A DNA stretch of 34,120 nt, taken from the NCBI GenBank assembly GCA_947471825.1, contig CANIYR010000001.1, positions 1 through 34,120 of the forward strand, in the 5' to 3' direction. Within the stretch, counting starts at the first letter, position 1; each line of letters opens with the position of its first letter. Shown in pieces: positions 5,302 to 21,796 of the stretch. Both the position numbers and the translations under genes were made by a program. The stretch comes from Phycisphaeraceae bacterium (GTDB lineage: Bacteria; Planctomycetota; Phycisphaerae; Phycisphaerales; Phycisphaeraceae). Under the pieces are notes generated by a model. The model made no database searches. It saw only the letters and a program-made list of their open reading frames with translations, and was not told where the DNA came from.

Positions 5302-6459
5302 TCAGTGTTCAACTTCCACCCAGGCCGCGTTGGCCTTGGTGGACTTGATCACCGCATCAATGAACGCCATCCCGCGGATGCCGTCTTCAATCTTGGGGAA
5401 GTCGTTTTCGATTTCGGTTGGCACGCGGCCTTCGCCCTTGGCGCGCAGGGTGCCGGCGAAGTTTTTGTAAATGGTGGCAAAGGCTTCCAAATAGCCTTCC
5501 GGATGGGCCGGCGGCGTGCGGGTGGCGGCGGCGGCGGTGGCACCCAGATAGCCCATGCCGGTGCGGTAGACCTGCATCGGCTGGTCGAGCCACTTGACCA
5601 GCATGGTGTTGGGCTCTTTCTGATGCCACTCGATGCCGCCCTTTTCGCCCCAGATGCGGATGTTGAGGTTGTTTTCCTCGCCCACGGCGATTTGCGAGCA
5701 GTGCAGCACGCCCTTGGCGCCGCCTTCGAAGCGCAGCAGCATGTTGGCGTCGTCGTCGAGCAGGCGGCCTTCCACAAAGGTGCTGAGATCGGCGGCCAAT
5801 TCCTTGATCTTGAGGCCGGTCATGTATTCGGCCAGGTTTTCGGCATGGGTGCCGATGTCGCCCACGCAGCCGGCGGCGCCGCTTTTGGTGGGGTCGGTGC
5901 GCCAGGCCGCCTGTTTCTGCCCGCTTTCCTCGAGGCGCGTCGCCAGCCAGCCCTGCGGGTATTCGACCACCACCTTGCGGATCTTGCCCAATTTGCCGGC
6001 GGCGATCATCGCCTTGGCTTCCTTCACCAGCGGGTAGCCGGTGTAGTTGTGGGTCAGGCCGTAGGTGAGCCCCGTCTTTTTGACGAGCAGCGCGAGTTCC
6101 TTGGCCTGTTCCGTGGTGAAGGTGGCCGGCTTGTCGGAGAGCACATGGAAACCGTTTTCAAGCGCCAGCTTGGCCGGGGCGAAGTGCATGTGGTTGGGGG
6201 TGACGATGGAAATGAAGTCCATGCGCTGGCCCTCGGGCAGGGCTTTCTCCTTGGCGATCATTTCCTCAAAAGAGCCGTAGCAGCGCGACTCGGCCAGGAA
6301 GAAATCACGGCCGGAGGCTTTGGACTTTTCAGGGTCGGAAGAAAAGGCGCCGCAGACCAGTTCAATCTGGCCGTCGATTTGCGCCGCGATGCGGTGAACG
6401 CCGCCGATGAAGGCACCGCGACCGCCGCCGACCATGCCGTAACGAATTTTTCTGCTCAT
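5302..6459 (-). CDS. Gfo/Idh/MocA family NAD(P)-dependent oxidoreductase (385 aa)
   Basis: An N-terminal Rossmann fold (IRYGMVGGGRGAFIGGVH) binds NAD(P). It is followed by VTPNHMHFAPAKLALENG and SDKPATFT, the variant of the family's E-K-P motif (here D-K-P) that contains the catalytic lysine region. The C-terminal alpha/beta domain carries GAAGCVGDIGTHAENLAEY, with Asp and His at the expected active-site positions. Members oxidise or reduce sugar hydroxyls, often at C3, and work with TIM-barrel isomerases such as the one at 2907-3902 on the same strand. No Tat or Sec signal is visible, so it is predicted cytoplasmic. The start at 6459 gives a full-length protein and lies about 36 bases after a plausible promoter start. 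The sugar substrate is unknown. Confidence 0.93.
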   Translation of the reverse strand: MSRKIRYGMVGGGRGAFIGGVHRIAAQIDGQIELVCGAFSSDPEKSKASGRDFFLAESRCYGSFEEMIAKEKALPEGQRMDFISIVTPNHMHFAPAKLALENGFHVLSDKPATFTTEQAKELALLVKKTGLTYGLTHNYTGYPLVKEAKAMIAAGKLGKIRKVVVEYPQGWLATRLEESGQKQAAWRTDPTKSGAAGCVGDIGTHAENLAEYMTGLKIKELAADLSTFVEGRLLDDDANMLLRFEGGAKGVLHCSQIAVGEENNLNIRIWGEKGGIEWHQKEPNTMLVKWLDQPMQVYRTGMGYLGATAAAATRTPPAHPEGYLEAFATIYKNFAGTLRAKGEGRVPTEIENDFPKIEDGIRGMAFIDAVIKSTKANAAWVEVEH

Positions 6460-9385: not shown

Positions 9386-11899
9386 TCACCGGTAAACAAA
9401 CCAGGCGGTGGCGGTGCAGTCCCGGTCGGCGCTGACCCGCACCCAGTGGGCGGCAAAGTCGGCGGGGAACGCATGGTTCAGTTCCTGGCCGGCCTTGAGC
9501 TTGAAAGTCATGACTTTGTGGAATCCGCTGAGCAGGTCGAAGTCCGCCTCCAGCGTCACCGTGCAATCGCGGTTGGCCAAGAGGCGCAGGCTTTTTTGGT
9601 CGTAGCCATTCATCAAGTACGGGTCAGACGGCACGCCGGCTTTGACCGCGCTGTCCTTCCACGGGCCGCCGGTGCCCACCGGCTTGCCCAACTGCCACAG
9701 GTCGTCGATCGCGCCCAGCCACAGGGCGGTCTTGCCATCGGCCGATTTGACCACATGGTCCGAGGCCGGCGCCGCCGGATTGACGCCGGAAAGCACGAGC
9801 AAGCCGCGCCAAGTGGCGTAATCCATGATTTGCTTGTTGTGGGTGCAGACCGGCTTCATCTTGGCGTACAGCGCGGGCTGGCCGACCACCCAGAACGGCA
9901 CTTCGTAAAAAGTGCCGTGGATGTTGGCCATCAGGCGCTCCGAAAGGATTTCGCGGTGGGCGCGCGGGGTGCCTTGCGCAAACGCCTTGTCAAAGGCGGC
10001 GTCGCCCTTGGGCAGGCGCAGGGTTTTGCCTTCGGAATGGAGGATCACCGAGGCGCCGTCCACGCTGAAGGACGCTTCCGGCTTGAGGAAGTCGCGCAGC
10101 GGCGTCCGGGGGTCGGCCAGGCCCTTCTTGTTGCCCCAGGCGGCGGAACCGAGGACGGCATCGGCGACGGTCTGCTCTTGGGTGGCGGGCACGAATGCGA
10201 GGCTGAGCTCATTGAGTTCAAGGGCGCCGCCGCCGGCATTGAAAACGCCAAGGTTGCGGTTGATGCGGTTGGGGAACAGAAGCGGCGCGCTGACCGGATC
10301 GGTGCTGGCGGCGTCGGGGATGGCGGCGAACAGTTCGCGGCCCTTGCCGCCTTCGTGCCTGGGCTCGTTGCCGAGCTGGAAGCCGACCGAGGCGCGGCAG
10401 TCAGCACTGGACCTCACGCGTATCCATTGCGCTGGCGGCAGGCTCAGGGTGGCGCTGCCGCCGGCGGTGACATCCACCGAGCCGGCGGGGGTCCACTTTC
10501 CGTCGCCCTTGGCGTCGATTTCAAGGCTGAAGCGGGTGGCCGCATCGGCGCTGAAGTGGCCCAGGCGCCGGGAGAACCCGTTGATCAGGAAGGGCGTGGA
10601 GTCTTCGCCGGATTTGACCGCGTCATGGGCCCAGATCGAGCCTGCGGCACTGGCTTCGCCCCAGGTGGCCAGGTCGTCATAAGAACCGAACCACAGGTTG
10701 GATTGCGGCTGGCCGCAGAGCGGATTGCCCTGGATCGAGGCTTCGTCGCAGCCCAGGACCAGCCGGTCGCCCCACTGGCAGAAATCCGGGATGTAGCGCA
10801 GGTGGCGGCCGATCGGCGTGATGCCGGCGGTGCGGCCGGGGGCGAAATCCTTGGGGAAGTCAAAGAACAGGCCGTGCATGTCCATCAGGCAGCGGCCGCC
10901 GCCGATCTCGCGGATGCGCGGCCATTCGGTGAACCAGCCGTGGGCGGCGTCGTTGTTGAGGCAGCCCTTGGGCAAAAGAAAGCAATGAAACATGCCGTCC
11001 TTGAGCACCTGCAGGCGCACCGCCCGTTTGTCCCAGCCGATGGTCCACAGCGGCAGGTCGCGGCCGGCGGCCGTCGGCGCGATGCCTTCGGGCCCGGTGA
11101 TGTCGGTGTATTGGCGCTGCTCGACGATTTGCCAGGTTTTGCCGTCAAAGGTGGCCAGGCAGCCGCGGTCCTCCGGGCCGAGCGTACCCGGGTCGGCGAC
11201 CTTCCAGTCCTTCTTCGGATCAAGGGCGCCGCTCTTGCCGTTGTTGGCCACCACCAGCAAACCCTGCGCGCAGTAAGCGCCCTTGCCGTGTTCGCCCGGG
11301 ACGGGGTTGTGGAACAGTTTGGTCACCGCCAGCGACCGCACATCCACCTCGTAGAGCATGCCCTCCATGTCGTACATGTAGGCCTTGTTGGCCGGGTCGG
11401 AGAGGTGGCGCGCCCAGGCGGTGACGCGACCGGGCATATCCTTGACCGGGATGACGCGCAATTCGCCCTTCTCGCTGATGGCGTAGTGGCCGATGAAGAG
11501 CTGCTTCGACTCAGCGTGGATCATGCGGCCGGCCGGGGTGCCCCCGACGGACTCCGAGCGCAGGATCATCTTCTTGTTTTCATCGATTTCGTAGAGTTTG
11601 TGCTGAGAGCCGTGCGGCTGATGGGGCGCATAGGTCACCATCCACAGTTTGCCCGCCCAGGGCACCAAGGCACCGATGCCGCATTCCTCGTGTCCCGCGG
11701 CGTTGAACAGGCCGTCGGCGCGGCTTTGGGAGTAGGCGGTCAGGTGCGGATAGACGCCGCTGATCTGGCGGGTGCCGGAGGACGAGGTGATTTCTTCGCG
11801 GCCATTGACCATTCCGGTGGTGACGGTGGCAGGGCTGTCGCCCGCCGCGGCGACGGCGGCGAAGAGCGAGAAAAGCAGGGCCGGGGTGGCGTGGCGCAT
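9386..11899 (-). CDS. Unknown secreted protein with an internal duplication (837 aa)
   Basis: The start at 11899 gives a clean signal peptide (MRHATPALLFSLFAAVAAAG), so the protein is exported. The body is rich in Gly, Trp and Tyr with many short beta-strand-like stretches, suggesting a beta-propeller followed by beta-sandwich modules. Residues 336-510 and 655-837 are repeats of each other. They share an HG-F-(D/E)-P pattern near the start, then DDL-W-G, then D-AVK-G with P(F/Y)L(I/M)NG, and end in an (I/W)VR-S-DC-A segment. No catalytic motif or known family is recognised. It is the last gene of an operon with an exported FAD oxidoreductase (34-base gap) and a metallophosphoesterase, so a role in extracytoplasmic glycan or metabolite handling is plausible but unproven. 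Confidence 0.8.
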   Translation of the reverse strand: MRHATPALLFSLFAAVAAAGDSPATVTTGMVNGREEITSSSGTRQISGVYPHLTAYSQSRADGLFNAAGHEECGIGALVPWAGKLWMVTYAPHQPHGSQHKLYEIDENKKMILRSESVGGTPAGRMIHAESKQLFIGHYAISEKGELRVIPVKDMPGRVTAWARHLSDPANKAYMYDMEGMLYEVDVRSLAVTKLFHNPVPGEHGKGAYCAQGLLVVANNGKSGALDPKKDWKVADPGTLGPEDRGCLATFDGKTWQIVEQRQYTDITGPEGIAPTAAGRDLPLWTIGWDKRAVRLQVLKDGMFHCFLLPKGCLNNDAAHGWFTEWPRIREIGGGRCLMDMHGLFFDFPKDFAPGRTAGITPIGRHLRYIPDFCQWGDRLVLGCDEASIQGNPLCGQPQSNLWFGSYDDLATWGEASAAGSIWAHDAVKSGEDSTPFLINGFSRRLGHFSADAATRFSLEIDAKGDGKWTPAGSVDVTAGGSATLSLPPAQWIRVRSSADCRASVGFQLGNEPRHEGGKGRELFAAIPDAASTDPVSAPLLFPNRINRNLGVFNAGGGALELNELSLAFVPATQEQTVADAVLGSAAWGNKKGLADPRTPLRDFLKPEASFSVDGASVILHSEGKTLRLPKGDAAFDKAFAQGTPRAHREILSERLMANIHGTFYEVPFWVVGQPALYAKMKPVCTHNKQIMDYATWRGLLVLSGVNPAAPASDHVVKSADGKTALWLGAIDDLWQLGKPVGTGGPWKDSAVKAGVPSDPYLMNGYDQKSLRLLANRDCTVTLEADFDLLSGFHKVMTFKLKAGQELNHAFPADFAAHWVRVSADRDCTATAWFVYR

Positions 11900-11933
11900 G
11901 GGATTTTGGAGGTGGCGTCGTGCGGCGGAGGTC

Positions 11934-13868
11934 TTACGGATTGGCGGACGGCGGCAGCACGCCACGGGTGATCTTTTCGCGCAGTTCCGGCAGGGCCTTT
12001 TCATACACCCCGCGCGGATCCAGGTGGTTACGCTTGGCAATGCCGGCGGCCAGGCCCACCACCTCGCCCATCATGCCGCAGGTGCGCATCACGCGCACGG
12101 CCCCCAGCGCTTCGTGGGTCACGCTGATGTCCCGGCCGGCCATCCACAGGTTGGCGATGTTGCGGCTGTAGAGCGCGCGGTAGGGCACCCAGTACGGGCC
12201 TTTGTAGCGGTATTGGGCCGACTCGGTGGCGCGCGAGATGAACGGGTCGGCGCCGTTGGCGGTCTTGTAGGCGGGGTCGGGCAGGTGCAGGTCCAGGTGC
12301 CAGGTGCAGGGGAAGGCGGCATCCGGGTAGGCCTTGGCTTGGCGGAAGTCCTCGCCACTCACGATGACATCGCCCAAGAGGCGGCGCGATTCGCGTTTGC
12401 CGGCGATGAAGGCCGCCCAGGCAAGCTGGCTGTCGGGGTAGGCGCCATCCACATTCTTGAGGGCATCCCAGGCGCCGTACATGGCGCGCAGGTTCTGGTC
12501 GCGCATCAGTTCCACTTCATTGATCGGGTCGCGGTCGAAGCCGGCTTCCCAGAACCACGAGCCCAGGTTGCGGGTGCCGGCCGGCTCCCATTGGCCGGCG
12601 TGCTTGCCGCGGCCCGGGAACGGCGTCTCGGTCAGATCCACCGCCCATGGGCAGCGCGGGAAGGCCACGGGCTGGGGTGTCCGGGCCGTCTCTTTCGAGA
12701 GCGGCTCGTCGAGGTCCTTGCAGTCGCAGCCCAACTGCTGGGCCCACGGGTTGCTGACGCCCATGTGGCCCTCGGGCGTGATTTCAAAATCGGCGCCGGC
12801 CATGGCCCCCACGCAGGCGTCGCCGGTGGCGTCCACAAAGTGGCTGCCGCCGATTTGCAGGCGCCGGCCGCTCTTGATGTCCTGCGCGGTCACCGACTGG
12901 ATGCGGCCGCCCTTGGCGGCCACCGCGTTGACGCGCATGCCGGTCAGCAGGTGCAGGCCGGGTTGGTTCTCGACCACTTTGAGCCGGCGCACATCCTCGT
13001 TTTTCAGGCCCTGCATATGCGCCAAGGGATCCGGGTTTTGGCAGGCCACCGCACTTTTACGGCTGCCGTCGAACTCGCCCACCAGATTGCCGATGGCCGG
13101 CCAAGGTTTCTGGTGCAGCAAACCCTCGATGCGCACGCCGACCTCGCTCGAACCGTTGCCGCCCAGCACAAAGCGGTCCTGGATCAGCGCGACCTGCAAG
13201 CCTTCGCGCGCGGCGGCCACCGCGGCGCAGGTGCCGGCGATGCCGCCGCCGACCACCACCAGGTCATACTGGCCGCCGTCTTCGGGCTGTGCCGGCAGGC
13301 CGAGCTGGGCGCGCCGCCACGGGGCCGCAGCCGGGCCGGCCTCCGGCGGTGTCCAAGCCGTGTCGGGGGCAAACAGCAGGGCGTCGCAGCGGCCCTCAAA
13401 GCCGGTCAGGTCGTGCAGGCTGATTTGGTTTTCGGCGGCCAGGTCCACCAGGCCGCCATCCTGCCAGTGCCACTGCGCGCCCTCGGTGCCGAATTCGGCG
13501 GCCACGGCGGCGCCGTTGACCCGCACCTGAAAGCGGCCCGGCGCACCCTTGGCGCCCCACGGCGCGACCCAGTCTTTGGTGCGCACCCACAGGCGGTGGC
13601 GGCCCGGCGTCGCCTTGAACATCGTTTGCGCGTCTTTCACCGGCCGCCCCAGTCCGTGGGCCAGCAGGTAGGGCGAACCCATCTGGTCCATGAACTGCTG
13701 GTCGAGCGCCCAGCCGCCCAAATCGCGGAAGGCTTCCGCCTCCAGCAGGATCGGGGTGGCCGGGCCGGTTGCGGCGGGCGCCGTGCGGGAGGCGGCCTGC
13801 GGCGTGCTGCCGCAAGCGGCAAGAACGGCGCATGACAAGGCGGCGGAGCCAAGGAGGACGTTGCGCAT
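11934..13868 (-). CDS. Exported FAD-dependent oxidoreductase with N-terminal beta-sandwich domain (lipoprotein, 644 aa)
   Basis: The N-terminus MRNVLLGSAALSCAVLAACG has a lipobox (LAAC), predicting a lipid-anchored exported protein. Residues about 40-175 resemble a carbohydrate-binding-like beta-sandwich (LLEAEAFRDLGGW, GRHRLWVRTKDW, GRFQVRVNG). A Rossmann-type FAD-binding motif follows at about residue 205 (LVVVGGGIAGTCAAVAAAREG), then VLGGNGSSEVGVR and FVDATGDACVGAMAGADFE, typical of the FAD_oxidored (PF12831-like) group found in PVC bacteria and Bacteroidetes. The C-terminal NLWMAGRDIS...GMMGEVVG closes the FAD fold. It is the middle gene of the operon, 7 bases after the metallophosphoesterase gene. 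The substrate is probably a sugar or polyol, by analogy only. An exported flavoprotein must receive FAD either before export by Tat or outside. A twin-arginine motif is not visible. Confidence 0.88.
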   Translation of the reverse strand: MRNVLLGSAALSCAVLAACGSTPQAASRTAPAATGPATPILLEAEAFRDLGGWALDQQFMDQMGSPYLLAHGLGRPVKDAQTMFKATPGRHRLWVRTKDWVAPWGAKGAPGRFQVRVNGAAVAAEFGTEGAQWHWQDGGLVDLAAENQISLHDLTGFEGRCDALLFAPDTAWTPPEAGPAAAPWRRAQLGLPAQPEDGGQYDLVVVGGGIAGTCAAVAAAREGLQVALIQDRFVLGGNGSSEVGVRIEGLLHQKPWPAIGNLVGEFDGSRKSAVACQNPDPLAHMQGLKNEDVRRLKVVENQPGLHLLTGMRVNAVAAKGGRIQSVTAQDIKSGRRLQIGGSHFVDATGDACVGAMAGADFEITPEGHMGVSNPWAQQLGCDCKDLDEPLSKETARTPQPVAFPRCPWAVDLTETPFPGRGKHAGQWEPAGTRNLGSWFWEAGFDRDPINEVELMRDQNLRAMYGAWDALKNVDGAYPDSQLAWAAFIAGKRESRRLLGDVIVSGEDFRQAKAYPDAAFPCTWHLDLHLPDPAYKTANGADPFISRATESAQYRYKGPYWVPYRALYSRNIANLWMAGRDISVTHEALGAVRVMRTCGMMGEVVGLAAGIAKRNHLDPRGVYEKALPELREKITRGVLPPSANP

Positions 13869-13875
13869 AAAGGTC

Positions 13876-14883
13876 TCAGGTGGTCTGCCCGGCTTTCCAG
13901 TGGCGGGCGCTGATTTTTGGGGTGATGAGGGCGGATTCTTGCGCCGTCATCTTGACTTTCAGATCCTGCGGCGAGGGGCCGACCCAGCGGGTCTGCATGC
14001 CCTCGATTTCCAGCGTGCCGGCGGCTGCATCCACCGTGAGCACGGCCCACAGCGGTCCCTCGTACGGGCAGGTGCTCGCCAGGGAAGGGCATTTTTTGTG
14101 GATCTCTTCCGACATGCTGCGGTGCGTGTGCCCGCCCACCCAGTAGTAGGAGGCGCTGTTGATCTCCACGCACGGAATGCCTTGGGGCGCGCGGAAACTG
14201 TCCTGGTGCAGGTGGCCCGACACGCAGGCCAGGATGCGGGCGGTGCCGGCGGCTTGGTTGGCCTTGGCCAGAAGATCGAGCAATTGCTTGCCGTCGTGCA
14301 GGCAGTTTTCCGGCGGCTGGTGGACGAACACCAAAACCGGCAGGCGGTCGGTGGCAAGCAAGGCATCCAGCCAATCCAACTGCTCTTGGCCGAGCGAACA
14401 GGCGTAGCCCTTGACTTTCGGGTTGGGGATGTTGCCATCCAAGAACACCAAGCGCACGCCGTTTGTCACCACGCTGTAATGGCAGGCCGGCATGCCGAAG
14501 GCGGCGGCGGCCGCCGTGCGTTGGAAGCCGCCATCCGTGTCATGGTTGCCCAAGACGCTGTGACGCGGCAGGTCGAGGCCGCGCCAGCCGGCCAGAAGCG
14601 CGGCATTGCGCGGGTGCGGCGTGGCGAAGTCGCCCAATTGCACCACGGCGTCCACCTGGCCTGCGCGGGCCGCGGCCAGAAACGCCGCGAGCCGCTCGGG
14701 CCCGTCGGGCATCACATCGTTGTGCAGGTCGGCAATCAGTGCAAGTTTGAGGCGCCGGCCTTGGGCCGGCGCGGCGGCCTGCGGGGTGCCGCAGCCCCAT
14801 TCGAGGCCCAGCGCCGCGCCGGCGACCAGGGTGGTCTTGAGGAAGGTGCGCCGGGTGTGCGGGGGCGGGGTGGGGGGTGGCAT
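13876..14883 (-). CDS. Tat-exported calcineurin-like metallophosphoesterase (335 aa)
   Basis: The N-terminus contains RRTFLKTTLVAGAALGLEWGC, a twin-arginine signal followed by a hydrophobic stretch and a possible lipobox, so the folded enzyme is probably exported and perhaps lipid-anchored. The metallophosphoesterase blocks occur in order: IADLHND (D-x-H), QLGDFATP (G-D), LGNHDTD (G-N-H-D), FVHQPPE and SGHLHQD (G-H-x-H). All metal ligands of the dinuclear site are present. Members cleave phosphomono- or diesters, and some act on nucleotides or phospholipids. It heads the three-gene operon, with 7 bases to the FAD oxidoreductase gene. The 93 bases upstream before the RAYT-like gene presumably hold its promoter, but none is obvious. 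Confidence 0.92.
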   Translation of the reverse strand: MPPPTPPPHTRRTFLKTTLVAGAALGLEWGCGTPQAAAPAQGRRLKLALIADLHNDVMPDGPERLAAFLAAARAGQVDAVVQLGDFATPHPRNAALLAGWRGLDLPRHSVLGNHDTDGGFQRTAAAAAFGMPACHYSVVTNGVRLVFLDGNIPNPKVKGYACSLGQEQLDWLDALLATDRLPVLVFVHQPPENCLHDGKQLLDLLAKANQAAGTARILACVSGHLHQDSFRAPQGIPCVEINSASYYWVGGHTHRSMSEEIHKKCPSLASTCPYEGPLWAVLTVDAAAGTLEIEGMQTRWVGPSPQDLKVKMTAQESALITPKISARHWKAGQTT

Positions 14884-14976: not shown

Positions 14977-16179
14977 TCACCCCTTCAACTTCGCCACCCG
15001 CACCCACTGCGCCGCAAACGCGGCGGCGTTCAAGCCCAGCGCGGCCAGCGCCGCTCCCATCGCACTTTCCAAATCGGGCGTCTCCGGCGCCTTGGCCCGG
15101 CCCGGCGCGGAAAGCGGCAGGTGCGGCCAGGTTTTGGCTTTCGCCACCAATGCGTCGAGCAACTTGAGGTATTTGCCCAGCGGCAGCCATGACAGGATGC
15201 CCTTGGGTGCGGAGGGTGCAAACATCGGCGCGTCCTCGCGCAGGGCCAGCAGCCAGAAGGTGGCCGGCCCGGCGGGCTGCGGCATGGCCGCATCACCCAT
15301 CGGGGGAAGCACTGCGCCATCCATGCCCATCCCAGCCATGGTCGGCGTGGGATAAGCCATGCCCGGCATGTCTGGCATCGGCATACCGCCCATACCGCCC
15401 ATTCCCGGCATATCCACCGGCGGCATGGCGGGCGGCGGCGCCGCTTCCGCGTCCACGCCGGCCGCATCGCGCAGTGGTTGCGCCACCTCCGGCCCGTACA
15501 CCGCCGCTTCATCCTGCGCCGGCAGCGCATCGCCGTTCATGCCGTAGATCGCTTGGTAACGGCCCACCCGCGCATGCAGGCTGGTGAAGGGCTCTGCCTC
15601 CGGCCGCTCTCCGCCGGCATCCACCACGGCGCGCAGATCCACGAACGCCATCGCGCCGGCCACCGCGCTCGCATCGGCCAAGGGCGCCATGTGAAAGCGC
15701 CCTTGCCAAATGCTGCCGCGCCGCTGGTTTTCCCAGTTGATCTTCTGCGCCAGCATCTGCTTGAACTGCTTCATGAACATCGACAAACTGCCGAGTTTTT
15801 GACGGATCGCCGCCGCGTCAGGAACCCTGGGAACGCGGGCCTCCAGACCCGCACCCATCCCCGCCACCGCTTCTGCTTGCGTTCCCATCTTCCCCTGCGG
15901 CGGATGCGCCAAAAGCCAGCGCCGCACGGCCTCGGCATCATCCCAAGCCTGCGACTCGCCCGGCACCCACTGCAACACCAGGTGGAACTGCGCGTCTTCG
16001 AGCGCAAAGGCCTGCACCTTGACCGCATAACTCTGCGCCAACCGCTTGAGCAATTTCTGCGCCCAGACTTTGAGCTTGTCGTCCGCCAGCAAGGCCAAGC
16101 CCGGAGCCATCCGGCTCCACAGGTGGAAGCAGTGGAGGGGTGGGGCTTGGGCGAGCTGGGTGCGGCGGGGGATGAGCAT
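14977..16179 (-). CDS. RAYT-like (Y1_Tnp family) protein with a degenerate HUH motif and a Met-rich insert (400 aa)
   Basis: The protein follows the layout of REP-associated tyrosine transposases common in planctomycetes: CFHLWSRM near the N-terminus, then KRLAQSYAVKVQAFALEDAQFHLVLQ, then WDDAEAVRRW, then LSMFMKQFKQMLAQKIN with GSIWQGRFH, then AFVDLRAVV and EPFTSLHARV, ending in a helical GLNAAAFAAQWVRVAKL. In active enzymes the second block ends N-H-x-H. Here it reads A-Q-F-H (residues 63-66), so the first His of the HUH metal site is lost. Residues about 247-302 are an inserted stretch rich in Met, Gly and Pro. Three upstream ATGs are in frame, but the promoter at 16193-16221 overlaps them, so MLIPRRTQ (16179) is chosen. 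No inverted-repeat ends flank the gene. It may be a domesticated, non-transposing protein. Confidence 0.78.
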   Translation of the reverse strand: MLIPRRTQLAQAPPLHCFHLWSRMAPGLALLADDKLKVWAQKLLKRLAQSYAVKVQAFALEDAQFHLVLQWVPGESQAWDDAEAVRRWLLAHPPQGKMGTQAEAVAGMGAGLEARVPRVPDAAAIRQKLGSLSMFMKQFKQMLAQKINWENQRRGSIWQGRFHMAPLADASAVAGAMAFVDLRAVVDAGGERPEAEPFTSLHARVGRYQAIYGMNGDALPAQDEAAVYGPEVAQPLRDAAGVDAEAAPPPAMPPVDMPGMGGMGGMPMPDMPGMAYPTPTMAGMGMDGAVLPPMGDAAMPQPAGPATFWLLALREDAPMFAPSAPKGILSWLPLGKYLKLLDALVAKAKTWPHLPLSAPGRAKAPETPDLESAMGAALAALGLNAAAFAAQWVRVAKLKG

Positions 16180-16192
16180 GAGGGATAAGAAA

Positions 16193-16221
16193 ATCATAGG
16201 TACAGACCTCATAAGTGTCAA
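16193..16221 (-). promoter_or_regulatory. Near-consensus promoter of the RAYT-like gene
   Basis: On the minus strand TTGACA (16216-16221), exactly 17 bases, then TATGAT (16193-16198). The ATG at 16179 is 13 bases after the -10 box, giving a leader of about 6-7 bases. The box overlaps the more upstream in-frame ATG codons, which decides the start. Confidence 0.8.
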
Positions 16222-16310: not shown

Positions 16311-19076
16311 ATGTCGAACAAATTCCGGACCCATCCCGCCCTGCCGTACATCCTGATGGTCGCCGCCGTGGTGGGCACCATCGGTCTGACCTTGGCGGCC
16401 CTGCCGTTCCTGACCAACCTGGCCCCATCGCCGCTCGCAGGTGGTGGCGCTGCCGCCGATGAACCGGTGGCGGAACTTCCCGCCGATGGCTGGGGCAGTC
16501 TTACGGTGCCCGCCGCCAAAGCCGCGGGAGTGGCCAAGGACGCCGCCGTCTTGCCGCCGGAGTTGTTCGCCCTGCCAGGCGACCTGGAGATCACCCTGTG
16601 GGCCAAGTCACCGCAGTTGTTCAACCCGACCAACATGGACATCGACGCCAAGGGCCGCATCTGGGTGACCGAGGGCCGCAACTACCGCGGCTCCCGCAAG
16701 GCCCCGCCGGAGGGCGACCGCGTGGTCATCCTGCAAGACAGCGACGGCGACGGGGTGGCTGACAAGTCCACCGTGTTCTACCAGGGCAAGGATCTCAGCG
16801 CGCCGCTTGGCATCGCGGTCATCGGCAACGAGATTTATGTTTCCATGTCGCCCAACCTGATCAAGTTCACCGATGTGGATGGCGACGGCGTGTTCAATCC
16901 CGCCGTGGACAAGAAGGAGGTTTTCCTGACCGGTTTCTCCACCTCCAACCACGACCACACCCTGCACGCGGTCACGGCCGGCCCGGACGGCGACCTGTAT
17001 TTCAACAGTGGCAACGAAGGCTTCGATGTCAAGGGGCCCGACGGCCGGCGCTTCACCAACGACGGCAAGCCGGGCGCCGACGGCCACCCGTCGCCGCAGG
17101 GTGTGGCCTTCCGCGTCAAGGCCGATGGCACCGGCCTGCAGCCGATCGGCTGCAATTTCCGCAACAGCTACGAGCAGTCGGTGACATCCTTCGGCGATGT
17201 GTTCATGAACGACAACGACGATGCCCAGGGCTGCCGCACCTCGTGGATGATGGAAGGCGCCGATTTCGGCTACCACACCAGCGACGGCCGCATGCACTGG
17301 CAGGCGGTGCGCCGCCCGGGCCAGCCCATGCCGCAGGCGCACTGGCGCCAGGCCGACCCCGGCGTTTCGCCGGCCGGCGACATCTACGGCAGCGGCGCGC
17401 CCACCGGCATCGCCTTCTATGAAAACGGCGCCCTGCCCGACCGCTACCTGGGCACCCTGCTCAGTTGCGAATGCGCCCTCAACACCCTTTTCGGTTACCA
17501 GCCGCGCCTCTCCAAGGCCGGCTTCACCCTGCAGCGCCATGACTTTTTGACCTCCAACAGCGGCAAGCAGTTCAGCGGCACCGATTCCACCGGCAGGAAG
17601 CAGGTCGCCGACCCGCTCAAGACCTGGTTCCGCCCCGCCGATGTGACCGTCGGCCCCGACGGCGCCCTGTATGTCTGCGACTGGTACGACGCCCGCGTCG
17701 GCGGCCACCAGACCTTTGACGGCCAGTGCCTGGGCGGCATCTACCGCATCGCGCCCAAGGGCTTCAAACCCAAGGTGCCGGCCCTTGATCTCAAGAGCGT
17801 GCCCGGCATGATTGAAGCGCTTGGGAACCCGACCCCGAATGTCCGCGTGCTGGGCTTCCGCGCGCTGGTGGCGCAGGGCGAAGCGGCCATCGGGCCGGTC
17901 AAGGCGTTGCTCTTGGACAAGAACCCCTACATCCGCGCCCGCGCCGTCTGGGTCTTGGCGCGCCTGGGCGAAGGCGGCGCCCAGGAGGCCGAAGCGCTTC
18001 TGCGCAGCCCGGAGGCGCCCCTGCGCATCACGGCCTTCCGCGCCCTGCGCCGCGCCGGCGCGCCGGTCCTGAAGCATGCCGCCCTTTTGGCCCGCGACCC
18101 TTCTCCTGCCGTCCGCCGCGAGGCGGCCCTGGCCCTGCGCGACCTGCCCCTGGCCGACACCCGCGAGATCCTGGCCAACCTGGCCCGCGGCTACGACGGC
18201 GCCGACCGCCATTACCTGGAGGCCTTCGGCAAAGCCTGCGCCGGCCATGAGGAGGAGGTCTACGCCATGCTCAAGACCGCGCTGGTCCAGCCGGATCCGC
18301 AGCAGTGGAACGACGCCTTCGCCGGCATCGCCTGGCGCCTGCACCCGGCATCCGCCGTGGCCGACCTGCAAGCGCGCGCCCTGGCGCCCCAATTGAGCCG
18401 CGCCGCCCGCCTGCAGGCGCTCGACGCCCTGGCCTTCATCCCCACCCGCGAAGCCGCCGCGGCCGCCCTGTCCATTGCGCAAAGCGGCGCCGATGACACC
18501 TACAACCAGGCGCATTTCTGGCTCGGCAACCGCCGCGGCAGTTATTGGAAGGGCCTTGGCATCGACGCCGGCCACGCCGCACTGAGCCGCAAGGTCAAGC
18601 CGGAGGCGGTGGCCGACGCCTCCTTCAAACTCGCCAATGTCACGCTGTCGCCGCAGGGCATCAAGGGGCGCGACGTGTTCCTTGGCCGGGGCACCTGCGT
18701 GGCCTGCCACAAGGTGGGGGACCAGGGCCGTGAAATCGCCCCCGACCTGTCTTTTGTCGGCGCCAAGTACAACGCCGCCGTGATCAAAGAATCCATGGTT
18801 GATCCAAGTTCCGCCATCGTCTTCGGCTACGAGACCACCACCCTGCGCACCAAGGACGGCAAGGAGCACCAGGGCTTCCTGCGTTCGGAGCGCGACCCGG
18901 TGACCCTTCAGGATTTCACCGGCGCCATGCAGGCCTTCCCCGAGGCCGACATCGTCTCGCGCGAAACCTCGCCGCAATCGCTGATGCCCTCGGCCAAGGC
19001 CCTCAACCTGAGCGATGCCGATCTGCAGGCTTTGGCCGACTTCTTCATCGAGGTCGCCGGCCAGGAGCGGAAATGA
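16311..19076 (+). CDS. PVC-type heme-binding CxxCH protein: dehydrogenase-like propeller, HEAT-like repeats, cytochrome c domain (921 aa)
   Basis: A large membrane-anchored redox protein. Residues 12-36 form one membrane segment. Residues about 85-475 form a soluble dehydrogenase-like beta-propeller (TIGR02604-like), with ITLWAKSPQLFNPTNMDIDAKG, DSDGDGVADK, DVDGDGVF and GPDGALYVCDWYDA. The D-x-D-G-D repeats look like calcium sites. Residues 490-750 consist of HEAT-like helical repeats (NPYIRARAVWVLARLG, PSPAVRREAALALRDLP). The C-terminal cytochrome c domain has the heme attachment site CVACH at about residue 796 (TIGR02603-like), and a Met near the end (SLMPSAKALN) is a likely sixth ligand. 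Such proteins are specific to the PVC group and are thought to pass electrons from sugar oxidation into the envelope. It heads a four-gene sugar operon. Confidence 0.93.
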   Translation: MSNKFRTHPALPYILMVAAVVGTIGLTLAALPFLTNLAPSPLAGGGAAADEPVAELPADGWGSLTVPAAKAAGVAKDAAVLPPELFALPGDLEITLWAKSPQLFNPTNMDIDAKGRIWVTEGRNYRGSRKAPPEGDRVVILQDSDGDGVADKSTVFYQGKDLSAPLGIAVIGNEIYVSMSPNLIKFTDVDGDGVFNPAVDKKEVFLTGFSTSNHDHTLHAVTAGPDGDLYFNSGNEGFDVKGPDGRRFTNDGKPGADGHPSPQGVAFRVKADGTGLQPIGCNFRNSYEQSVTSFGDVFMNDNDDAQGCRTSWMMEGADFGYHTSDGRMHWQAVRRPGQPMPQAHWRQADPGVSPAGDIYGSGAPTGIAFYENGALPDRYLGTLLSCECALNTLFGYQPRLSKAGFTLQRHDFLTSNSGKQFSGTDSTGRKQVADPLKTWFRPADVTVGPDGALYVCDWYDARVGGHQTFDGQCLGGIYRIAPKGFKPKVPALDLKSVPGMIEALGNPTPNVRVLGFRALVAQGEAAIGPVKALLLDKNPYIRARAVWVLARLGEGGAQEAEALLRSPEAPLRITAFRALRRAGAPVLKHAALLARDPSPAVRREAALALRDLPLADTREILANLARGYDGADRHYLEAFGKACAGHEEEVYAMLKTALVQPDPQQWNDAFAGIAWRLHPASAVADLQARALAPQLSRAARLQALDALAFIPTREAAAAALSIAQSGADDTYNQAHFWLGNRRGSYWKGLGIDAGHAALSRKVKPEAVADASFKLANVTLSPQGIKGRDVFLGRGTCVACHKVGDQGREIAPDLSFVGAKYNAAVIKESMVDPSSAIVFGYETTTLRTKDGKEHQGFLRSERDPVTLQDFTGAMQAFPEADIVSRETSPQSLMPSAKALNLSDADLQALADFFIEVAGQERK

Positions 19077-19180
19077 GCCGGCAAGGCCAAAATCGCAGGC
19101 GGCCGTAAACTTTCGCACGGCCAAGCGTCCGTTCTTCCTGAATTCCCCGCATCCACTTGGTTCCGCCTTTGAGACACCCC

Positions 19181-20134
19181 ATGATCAACCCGCTCAAACT
19201 GTTGCTGCCCCTGGTCCTGTTGGCCTGCACGCCCGCGGCCTTGACGGCGGAGGACGCCGCCCCCGCACCCAAGCCCAAGAAGATCGTCTTCATCGCCGGC
19301 AGTCCCAGCCACGGTTACGGCAACCATGATTTCAAATCCGGCTGCAACCTGCTGGCCAAACTGCTCAACGAATCGGGCCAGCCGGTCAAGGCCGAAGTGT
19401 GCTACCCTGGCTGGCCCAAGGACGCCTCCATCTTGGCCGATGCCGACGCCATCGTGGTCTATGCCGACGGCGGCCGGGGCAATCCGCTGATCCCGCATTT
19501 GAAGGAACTTGACGCCTTGGCCAAAAAGGGCGTGGGCATCGGCATGATGCACTACGCCGTCGAGTGCCCCAAGGGCGAAGCTGGCGACAAATTCATGGAA
19601 TGGACCGGCGGTTTTTATGAAACCCTGCACTCCTGCAATCCGATGTGGGAGGCCGATTTCAAATCCTTCCCAGACAACCCGGTCACCCGCGGCGTCACGC
19701 CGTTCCGCGCCATGGATGAATGGTATTTCTGCCTGAATTTCGCCGAAAGCCCGGTCAAGCCCACGCCCATCCTGCGCGCCACGCCGTCGGATGCCGTCCG
19801 CAACGGCCCCTATTCCGGCCCGGCCGGACCCTACAAGCACATCCAGGAAGCCAAGGGCCGGACCGAGACCCTGATGTGGACCCTGGTGCGCCCCGAGGGC
19901 GGGCGCGGCTTCGGTTTCACCGGCGGCCACAAGCATTGGAACTGGGGCAAGCCCCAGCAGCGCGCCGTGATCCTCAACGCCATCGTCTGGATTGCCGGGC
20001 TGGAGGTCCCCGCCGGCGGCGTGCCGAGCCCCAAGCTCACCTTCAAGGATCTTGACACGAACATGGACGAAGCCAAGCCGGCCCATTTCGATTCCGCCGC
20101 CGTTGAGAAGCAACTCGCCGAGTGGCAGAAATAA
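19181..20134 (+). CDS. ThuA-like domain protein, exported (317 aa)
   Basis: The start at 19181 gives a signal sequence MINPLKLLLPLVLLACTPAALTAED, in which LLAC is also a possible lipobox. The ThuA-like (PF06283) class I glutamine-amidotransferase-type fold follows: KKIVFIAGSPSHGYGNHDF, then YADGGRGNPL, KKGVGIGMMHYAVE (His at the nucleophile-elbow region), DEWYFCLNF, and the C-terminal GFGFTGGHKHWNWG. ThuA was named from trehalose utilisation in rhizobia, where the protein helps process 3-keto-trehalose, but its chemistry is unclear. The gene is 104 bases after the heme-protein gene and 33 bases before the epimerase-like gene, so it is probably co-transcribed. An upstream in-frame codon at 19157 is less likely because it would spoil the signal peptide. 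Confidence 0.92.
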   Translation: MINPLKLLLPLVLLACTPAALTAEDAAPAPKPKKIVFIAGSPSHGYGNHDFKSGCNLLAKLLNESGQPVKAEVCYPGWPKDASILADADAIVVYADGGRGNPLIPHLKELDALAKKGVGIGMMHYAVECPKGEAGDKFMEWTGGFYETLHSCNPMWEADFKSFPDNPVTRGVTPFRAMDEWYFCLNFAESPVKPTPILRATPSDAVRNGPYSGPAGPYKHIQEAKGRTETLMWTLVRPEGGRGFGFTGGHKHWNWGKPQQRAVILNAIVWIAGLEVPAGGVPSPKLTFKDLDTNMDEAKPAHFDSAAVEKQLAEWQK

Positions 20135-20167
20135 CCTTTCAGAAACAACCTTCCAAGAGCCCCACCC

Positions 20168-21025
20168 ATGAAACTCGGACTCAACCTGCTGCTGTGGACC
20201 GGCCATGTCACCGAAGAACATTTCCCGCTGATCCGTCGTATCAAGGCGGCCGGCTTCGATGGCGTGGAAGTGCCGCTGTTCGAGGGCTCGCCCGCCCACT
20301 ACGCCCGCCTCGGCGCCTTTCTGAAAGATGAGGGCCTGGCCTGCTCGGCGGTGGCCATCATTCCCGACGAGTCGAAGAGCCCCATCAGCCCGGTCCCGGC
20401 GCACCGCCAGGCGGCCATCGATCACCTGCGTCACGCGGTCGACTGCTCGGCGGCCCTGGGCGCCGATGTGCTGATGGGCCCCTTCCATTCGCCGCTGGGC
20501 GTGTTCAGCGGCCAGGGCCCCACCGAAACCGAGAAGCAGCACGGTGCCGCGGTTCACCGCGCCATGGCCGAGCATGCGCAAGCCGCCGGCGTCCTGTGCG
20601 TGCTGGAATGGCTCAACCGTTTCGAGTGCTACTTTCTCACGACCATGGACGATGCCGCCGCCTACGCGCGGCTGGTCAATCATCCGTCCTTCACGACCAT
20701 GCACGACACCTTCCACGCCAACATCGAGGAGAAGGATGTGGTCGCCAGCATCCGCCGCAACATCGCGCACATCGGCCATGTGCACATTTCCGAGAACGAC
20801 CGCGGCACGCCGGGCCGTGGCCACATCGATTTCCTGCCGCAATTGCAGGCCCTGCGTGCGGGCGGCTACGACGGCTGGCTGACCATCGAAGCTTTCGGCC
20901 GCGCCCTGCCCAGCCTGGCCGCCGCCACCCGCGTGTGGCGCGATTTCTTCCCCTATGCCGACGAGGTTTACCTGGAAGGCGGGCCGTTTGTCCGCAAACT
21001 CTGGGCACAGGCCGCCCCGCGCTGA
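20168..21025 (+). CDS. Ketose 3-epimerase-like TIM-barrel isomerase (285 aa)
   Basis: The protein resembles D-tagatose/D-psicose 3-epimerases. The four metal ligands lie in family motifs: Glu in LEWLNRFE, Asp in MHDTFHANIEE, His in GHVHISENDRGTPGRGHIDF, and Glu in LTIEAFG. The NRFE, HANIEE and ENDRGTPG blocks are particularly diagnostic. The family uses Mn2+ or Co2+ to invert C3 of free ketoses, and relatives act as 3-keto-sugar isomerases or lyases. No signal peptide is present, so this is a cytoplasmic step inside an operon whose other members are exported. The start directly at MKLGLNLLLWTGHV agrees with the family. The gene at 2907-3902 belongs to the same superfamily but to a different subgroup. 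Confidence 0.92.
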   Translation: MKLGLNLLLWTGHVTEEHFPLIRRIKAAGFDGVEVPLFEGSPAHYARLGAFLKDEGLACSAVAIIPDESKSPISPVPAHRQAAIDHLRHAVDCSAALGADVLMGPFHSPLGVFSGQGPTETEKQHGAAVHRAMAEHAQAAGVLCVLEWLNRFECYFLTTMDDAAAYARLVNHPSFTTMHDTFHANIEEKDVVASIRRNIAHIGHVHISENDRGTPGRGHIDFLPQLQALRAGGYDGWLTIEAFGRALPSLAAATRVWRDFFPYADEVYLEGGPFVRKLWAQAAPR

Positions 21026-21079
21026 CGCCCGACACCTTTTTACACCGCCTCGGCCACCCCTTTTTTGGAAAGACAATCC

Positions 21080-21796
21080 ATGTTCAAACGCCCCTTGATG
21101 ATGGCCGCCTCAGCACTTGTTCTTGTCGCCTTCGGCGCGTTGGCTGCCGATGACGGCGAGAAACTGTTCAACGGCAAGGACCTCGCCGGCTGGGAAGGCA
21201 ACCCGGCCTTCTGGAAGGTCGAGGATGGCACCCTCACCGGGGAATCCGGCGGCGCCAACCCCTGCAACAAAACCACCTTTCTCATCCTCAAGGACCGCCA
21301 GGTCGGCGATTTTGAGCTGACCGCCCGATTCCGTTTTCTCTCCGATCAGGGCAACTCCGGCATCCAGTACCGCAGCACCGTGGCCGATGCCAAGGCGTTC
21401 GATGTCAAGGGCTACCAGGCCGATTTCGAAGCGGGACCGACCTACACCGGCATCCTTTACGAGCAGGGTGGGCGGGGCATCCTGGTCAACCGCGGCGACA
21501 AGATGGAGATAGCCGCCGACGGCACCCGCAAGGTCACCGGGCATTTTGAGAATGTCAAAGGGCTCAAACTTGAAAAAGGCCGCTGGTACACCCAGCGCAT
21601 CATCGCCAAGGGCAGCCACCTGATCCAGGAGATTGACGGCGTGCGCACCATGGAGGTGGTGGACAACGACGCCAAGCGCAGCGCCAGCCGCGGCTGCCTG
21701 GCGCTTCAGTTGCATGCCGGGCCGGCCATGAAGGTGCAGTTCAAGGACATCGTGCTGAAAGAAACCCCCGCCGAAGGGGCGAAGCCCGCGAAGTGA
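21080..21796 (+). CDS. DUF1080 (3-keto-disaccharide hydrolase-like) secreted protein (238 aa)
   Basis: A Sec signal peptide (MFKRPLMMAASALVLVAFGALAAD) precedes a single DUF1080/PF06439 domain, a concanavalin-like beta-sandwich. Key strands are visible: LFNGKDLAGWEG, FWKVEDGTLTGES, FELTARFRF, NSGIQYRS, GYQADFEAGP, LYEQGGRGIL, ITxEIDGVR-like sequence near QEIDGVRTMEVVD, and GCLALQLHAGPAMKVQFKDI. Some characterised members cleave 3-keto-glycosides. It ends the operon and is followed by a strong terminator. Export suggests that the keto-glycoside is made outside the cytoplasm, perhaps by the heme protein, before the cytoplasmic epimerase acts. The frame extends five codons upstream to a TTG at 21065, but the ATG fits the signal peptide better. 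Confidence 0.92.
   Translation: MFKRPLMMAASALVLVAFGALAADDGEKLFNGKDLAGWEGNPAFWKVEDGTLTGESGGANPCNKTTFLILKDRQVGDFELTARFRFLSDQGNSGIQYRSTVADAKAFDVKGYQADFEAGPTYTGILYEQGGRGILVNRGDKMEIAADGTRKVTGHFENVKGLKLEKGRWYTQRIIAKGSHLIQEIDGVRTMEVVDNDAKRSASRGCLALQLHAGPAMKVQFKDIVLKETPAEGAKPAK

Follow-up and report, generated by a model that had tools for sequence, protein, structure and literature searches.

Three described systems come close to a cluster of three genes for exported proteins in the DNA of a Phycisphaeraceae bacterium (assembly GCA_947471825.1, contig CANIYR010000001.1, positions 1 to 34,120; this whole stretch of 34,120 nucleotides is called the window). The genes code for a phosphoesterase (MPE), a flavin adenine dinucleotide (FAD)-dependent protein (the FAD protein) and a protein of 837 amino acids (DUP). 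In polysaccharide utilization loci of Bacteroidota, SusC/SusD precede the genes for relatives of the FAD protein and of DUP, and sulfatases or glycosidases lie in the vicinity; the window, however, holds no SusC/SusD match and so does not qualify as such a locus. To our knowledge, neither a flavoenzyme nor an unnamed propeller family is a standard part of these loci. The extracytosolic flavinylated systems, both fumarate-reductase-like and NapH-like (PMC8238504), are similar in that relatives of the FAD protein stand beside an FMN_bind/4Fe-4S membrane protein and ApbE, and the interchange of cytochromes and flavins described in that paper fits as well; unlike them, the genome studied here lacks ApbE and FMN_bind, and PF12831, FAD_oxidored and sugar go unmentioned in the paper's main text. 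The periplasmic 3-ketoglycoside pathway (LacABC with DUF1080; PMC9007349) has putative counterparts in the window region, namely an exported dehydrogenase candidate, a heme-type acceptor candidate, a 3-keto-disaccharide hydrolase and a sugar-isomerase-like gene, but the FAD protein belongs to PF12831. Within the accessible text of the open-licence literature, nothing was found on the pair of FAD protein and DUP, or on PF12831/FAD_oxidored in connection with polysaccharides or Planctomycetes; one further search listed a paper on the flavoproteome of Brucella ovis.

Here we report that the genes for the FAD protein and DUP are neighbours both in the window and in sugar-uptake loci of marine Bacteroidota, for which reason a joint action of the two proteins on an extracytoplasmic polysaccharide is probable. 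The phosphoesterase looks like a local addition rather than a part of the conserved system.

Organization of the locus

Open reading frames of the window place the three genes on the minus strand in the order MPE, FAD protein, DUP, with intergenic gaps of 7 and 34 bases. The original prediction of an operon with this spacing and with export signals on all three products is borne out by the reading frames, signal matches and translations. The features are:

13876..14883, minus strand: MPE, first gene, a 335-residue calcineurin-like metallophosphoesterase with a twin-arginine (Tat)-type export signal (Metallophos and TIGR01409 matches, motifs)
11934..13868, minus strand: FAD protein, second gene, a 644-residue exported FAD-dependent oxidoreductase of PF12831, probably a lipoprotein (FAD_oxidored match, LAAC lipobox)
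13323..13769, minus strand: N-terminal domain of the FAD protein, residues ~34-182, without a Pfam family (conservation in 35 aligned rows)
9386..11899, minus strand: DUP, third gene, an 837-residue exported protein of an unnamed family (no family match; 40 rows aligned)
10664..11767, minus strand: predicted seven-bladed beta-propeller of DUP, residues ~45-412 (model, PDB propeller matches, conservation)
9398..10015, minus strand: second copy in DUP of the last propeller part and sandwich, residues 629-834 (79 bits to residues 309-507)

The length of DUP is counted from an ATG; an alternative upstream TTG would give 884 residues and overlap the FAD gene. Separate promoters would have argued against a common system, and no promoter-like site was found between the three genes. 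Terminator-like sites were not more numerous than in shuffled sequence. A strong promoter-like sequence, TTGACA-17-TATGAT (11 of 12 positions), lies at 16221-16193, upstream of the 414-residue gene that precedes MPE, and is weak evidence, one such site being observed against 0.6 expected. This 414-residue gene (14977-16221, minus strand) matches an IS200-like transposase profile (Y1_Tnp) weakly, with a score under the cut-off, and possibly codes for a transposase associated with repetitive extragenic palindromes.

Recurrence of the FAD protein and DUP as a pair

Nine Bacteroidota loci with DUP were examined (L093, L094, L096, L097, L186, L187, L188, L189 and L197). Four of these, all flavobacterial (L093, L096, L097 and L186), carry consecutive DUP and FAD genes downstream of SusC/SusD, with a spacing that ranges between a gap of 21 bases and an overlap of 14, and their FAD homologues share the N-terminal domain of the window protein. 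The gene order in the four is DUP, FAD protein, F4 (our name for a protein of ~374 residues that follows the FAD protein in Bacteroidota), a CstA-type transporter and an FG-GAP/UnbV protein; L097 holds an extra short DUP paralogue. SusC/SusD precede DUP in six of the nine loci (these four, with a fucosidase gene between in L186, and also L094 and L197) and follow it in L188; near DUP in L187 and L189 they were not found. All six Bacteroidota loci read around the FAD protein (the same four, L198 and L199) follow SusC/SusD, recognised in L198 and L199 by reading translations, and F4 comes next in five of the six. Among 199 genomes from the family of G383, DUP occurs in five, with the FAD gene adjoining in three (G383, G386 and G549). 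One FAD locus, from the human oral Prevotella taxon 299 (L198, 11890-16476), reads SusC, SusD, FAD protein, GH20 hexosaminidase and a gene of the endonuclease/exonuclease/phosphatase family; the flavoenzyme is thus also present in a host-associated bacterium.

Trees were built for both proteins, each with 31 rows, duplicates removed and midpoint rooting. In that of DUP (rows of at least 700 residues), four named Planctomycetota rows group with the window sequence (100/100), and seven Bacteroidota rows are their sister group (93/92). In that of the FAD protein (rows with >400 aligned columns and >280 bits to the window protein), the clade of the window sequence (100/99) has nine rows, lacks DUP neighbours and is separate from the flavobacterial rows. 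Since the two trees place the pairs differently, the FAD partner differs between the window and the flavobacterial settings, and simple inheritance of one ancestral operon does not explain the association. With DUP sister to a Bacteroidota group and its partner in another clade, it is probable that the partnership arose, or exchanged a member, on more than one occasion.

Fate of the phosphoesterase

MPE matches the Metallophos profile with 50 bits (cut-off 21.5; E 6.5e-13), and its translation shows DxH, GD, GNHD, H and GHxH motifs, which we take to define the metal site of calcineurin-like phosphoesterases; profile and motifs together place it in that class by sequence. The score of its Tat signal falls just short of the Pfam cut-off (22.6 bits against 22.7) and exceeds that of NCBIfam TIGR01409 (18.0 against 16.7). 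As a cyclic nucleotide phosphodiesterase of the SpdA type it scores 41.3 bits against an equivalog cut-off of 400 in NCBIfam. A search for PhoD in its own genome (G000; 1.53 Mb in 172 contigs, 78% complete) found none.

The original prediction had offered the trio as one system, to be checked by its conservation in related genomes, absence of co-occurrence counting against it. In a sample of 101 relatives (matches at E 1e-3), DUP was found in 16 genomes, MPE in 31 and the FAD protein or its superfamily in 89; in a sample of 294 genomes of the phylum, searched with stricter limits, DUP was found in 21, the FAD protein in 36 and MPE in 11. All three occur together in the phylum sample in the window's own genome and in G369, where they are scattered at about 1.07, 3.93 and 2.93 Mb; likewise in G038, among the relatives, strong matches to the three lie at about 0.66, 1.42 and 1.96 Mb. 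No other genome of either sample has the trio clustered. Neighbours differ among the 11 MPE loci read; a PVC-heme-like gene adjoins MPE in two of them (L191, by tblastn; L122, by sequence cluster only). Co-occurrence thus fails for the trio, though not for the FAD protein with DUP, and MPE as a partner in a conserved trio is not supported.

A predicted propeller with conserved polar residues

DUP has no family match in Pfam, NCBIfam or PDB sequences, and no credible PDB relative was found there. It begins with a Sec-type leader, as read from the sequence. Residues 309-507 are repeated at 629-834 (30% identity, 79 bits, E 1e-20; none of 50 shuffles gave more than 21.9 bits), while the N-terminal part is present once only, so that the earlier description of a duplicated protein holds for the former region and not for the latter. 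The model, made from 11 sequences, has a mean predicted local distance difference test (pLDDT) of 76 and a predicted template modelling score (pTM) of 0.81, with mean pLDDT over five models of 59 to 76. It is laid out as a seven-bladed propeller (45-412), a sandwich (~417-510), a linker of poor prediction quality and then the last propeller part and sandwich once more. PDB fold matches to the propeller reach Z 16.3, many unrelated propellers lying at Z 14-16; the virginiamycin B lyase 2z2n matches the predicted fold at Z 15.8, but many unrelated propellers score alike. Carbohydrate lyase propeller families do not appear among the 50 fold matches listed, which is no evidence against such an identity.

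An alignment of 40 rows has 75 positions with an identity of 90% or more. These include six histidines (93, 128, 165, 204, 320 and 342), six arginines (125, 148, 158, 328, 330 and 494) and five glutamates (72, 179, 184, 325 and 460), all of them inside the propeller except Arg494 and Glu460. The conservation of the six histidines suggests that DUP is an enzyme, and the polar set as a whole would resemble a catalytic or anion-binding pocket more than a scaffold. Shorter relatives of ~480 residues (L125-L132 and L145-L149) align with DUP over its N-terminal part and its final ~140 residues; several (L128, L130 and L132) adjoin regulator-like genes of one sequence cluster and seem to be without a signal peptide.

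The flavoenzyme and its electron-transfer partners

The FAD protein matches PF12831 (FAD_oxidored) with 221.9 bits (cut-off 27, E 2.4e-65) over residues 202-631, and its FAD-binding motif is intact. The subfamily is rare, with 36 of the 294 phylum genomes holding it at one to three places each. The lipobox-like LAAC read at its N terminus makes it probably a lipoprotein. The N-terminal region (~34-182) is separate and very conserved; many positions are at least 93% identical in 35 rows. Because this domain and the catalytic part are conserved to about the same degree, the domain may help to form the active site rather than serve as a detachable binding module. A Golvesin-like identity was tried for it and is not supported (Golvesin_C, hhalign probability 1.2%). 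The structure model from four sequences is of low confidence (pLDDT 42, pTM 0.36) and neither bears out nor contradicts the N-terminal beta-sandwich of the original prediction; no PDB match listed spans more than the FAD-binding region.

Electron-transfer genes (FMN_bind/Fer4_5, ApbE or DUF4405) adjoin nine of the 26 FAD loci of the phylum (23 loci and L171-L173). A membrane protein with FMN_bind and Fer4_5 stands beside the FAD relatives in L112 and L164 (tested with Pfam) and in L111, L114 and L173 (same sequence cluster), and FMN_bind alone in L172, where the protein is cut by the locus end. ApbE is found in L112 (tested) and in L111, L116 and L167 (by sequence cluster), and DUF4405, below the Pfam cut-off, in L116 and L117. 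In the window, a divergent operon adjoins instead:

16311..19076, plus strand: PVC-type heme-binding CxxCH protein, candidate electron acceptor (TIGR02604, TIGR02603)
19157..21796, plus strand: ThuA, xylose-isomerase-like TIM barrel and 3-keto-disaccharide hydrolase, after the heme gene (PF06283, PF01261, PF06439)

The heme protein scores 385.7 bits with TIGR02604 and 98.2 bits with TIGR02603, both above cut-off. The genome being without FMN_bind and ApbE, a heme carrier such as this one is likely to substitute for the flavin carrier; cytochromes and flavinylated proteins replace each other in extracytosolic flavin systems, according to PMC8238504. A redox link to the heme operon, earlier called conceivable, gains support from the relatives that stand beside FMN_bind/ApbE or DUF4405 and from the adjoining heme operon here.

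F4 (L093, 12329-13453; homologues in L096, L097, L186, L199 and L179) is an exported family without a Pfam family. All six sequences hold a D-x-x-[SAT]-G-A-T motif like flavinylation sites, which aligns with the FMN_bind motif at a probability of 15% (E 0.0017; 0.15-0.59 in five column-shuffled controls). Pfam FMN_bind gave no match at E 10 for the three sequences tested, nor at 0.01 for that of L093, and two sequences have AGAT in place of the [S/T]GA[S/T] published in PMC8238504; a flavinylated carrier is therefore kept as a lead only.

Clues to the substrate

Sulfatases make up 6 of 94 neighbours of DUP against at most 1 of 97 control genes (a bound taken from the order of the first 25 control families), those of L091 and L092 not being independent, as the two loci are close relatives. 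Neighbouring reading frames came from a codon-usage script; in L091 and L092 some called fragments were left out and longer frames used. A sulfatase-like gene, recognised by its translation, lies in the second Kriegella FAD locus, and an alpha-L-fucosidase in the DUP locus of G549. In the window, the 3-keto-disaccharide hydrolase (21065-21796) scores 116.5 bits with PF06439 (cut-off 26.8), as a locus of the 3-ketoglycoside pathway would require. The sulfatases and fucosidase near relatives, together with ThuA, the sugar-isomerase-like gene and the hydrolase of the divergent operon, point to a glycan, possibly an anionic one, as the substrate. Another sugar-redox candidate, a Gfo/Idh/MocA oxidoreductase (5302-6459, minus strand), lies ~3 kb from the DUP gene.

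Discussion

The FAD protein and DUP recur in polysaccharide loci as an exported, uncharacterised module, whose role is probably a redox one. In the fuller reading that we favour, to which we give about an even chance, they would process a glycan outside the cytoplasm and hand electrons to a dedicated carrier, MPE being a local addition. DUP would use the polar pocket at the centre of its propeller to bind or cleave a polysaccharide, probably anionic; the FAD protein would oxidise a sugar of the polymer or of a released oligosaccharide; in relatives the electrons would go to a membrane protein of FMN-binding or cytochrome-like type, and in the window possibly to the divergent heme protein. The 3-keto-disaccharide hydrolase could then split the oxidised product, and MPE may strip phosphate from the substrate. 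Besides the flavobacterial loci, co-occurrence in the phylum sample speaks for this reading: with the own genome left out, the FAD subfamily is present in 12 of 20 genomes with DUP versus 23 of 273 without (Fisher p 8e-8). Several observations weigh against it. The co-occurrence may reflect large, glycan-rich genomes, genome size not being controlled for. Adjacency within the phylum is confined to the window, the next closest pair being ~24 kb apart (G262). The window gave no match to SusC or SusD (tblastn with those of L093 at 1e-6) or to a sulfatase at 1e-6, and its 78% complete genome gave none to ApbE or FMN_bind, as a NapH-like flavinylated system would have. The PDB propeller matches are generic, and any enrichment of sugar-redox genes around FAD relatives is weak (Gfo/Idh, 6 of 117 versus 2 of 97).

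Could the flavoenzyme work in the opposite direction? Like extracytosolic fumarate or urocanate reductases, it might deliver electrons to an unsaturated or oxidised product of DUP, such as that of a lyase. FMN_bind/Fer4_5 and ApbE partners can work in either direction, the PDB profile matches include flavocytochrome c3 fumarate reductase (over the FAD-binding motif only), and cytochrome and flavinylated carriers serving such reductases are described in PMC8238504. The 3-keto-disaccharide hydrolase next door and the precedent of a periplasmic lactose 3-dehydrogenase (PMC9007349) favour oxidation instead, and we consider the reductive role unlikely. It is likewise improbable that three unrelated exported genes came together by chance in one genome, the flavobacterial adjacency being a separate coincidence of polysaccharide loci. 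That would suit the absence of the trio elsewhere and the adjacency of the pair in a single genome of the phylum sample, but the FAD subfamily is rare, and chance is unlikely to have set it tightly beside one and the same DUP family in two phyla, from a different FAD clade each time.

The idea that all three proteins act jointly outside the cytoplasm on a phosphorylated or polymeric substrate survives in part: the four flavobacterial SusC/SusD loci support the FAD protein with DUP on a polymer, and not MPE as a conserved member. For a phosphorylated polymer with MPE as an essential partner one may cite the genes that follow the FAD protein in Prevotella (the GH20 hexosaminidase and the endonuclease/exonuclease/phosphatase-family gene) and a weak metallophosphoesterase relative in G071 (30% identity), ~1.5 kb from its DUP gene with one gene between. 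Yet the SusC/SusD loci of the pair gave no metallophosphoesterase match and the surroundings of MPE vary from locus to locus, which makes this version very improbable. A bolder form of the module reading is doubtful: DUP would stand for a propeller enzyme class of a new kind, whose active site is rich in histidine and possibly binds metal, and which, with its dedicated exported flavoenzyme, breaks polysaccharides by redox chemistry coupled to the respiratory chain through interchangeable FMN and heme carriers, in Planctomycetota-like bacteria and Bacteroidota.

Marine bacteria decide what share of the carbon in algal polysaccharides is respired, and many genes of their sugar-uptake loci have no known role. 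Kriegella aquimaris and Euzebyella are among the cultured species in which the pair of FAD protein and DUP is approachable. If our reading is true, glycan breakdown would include a redox step formed by a flavoenzyme, with an electron carrier of its own, and a recurrent partner from an unnamed propeller family.

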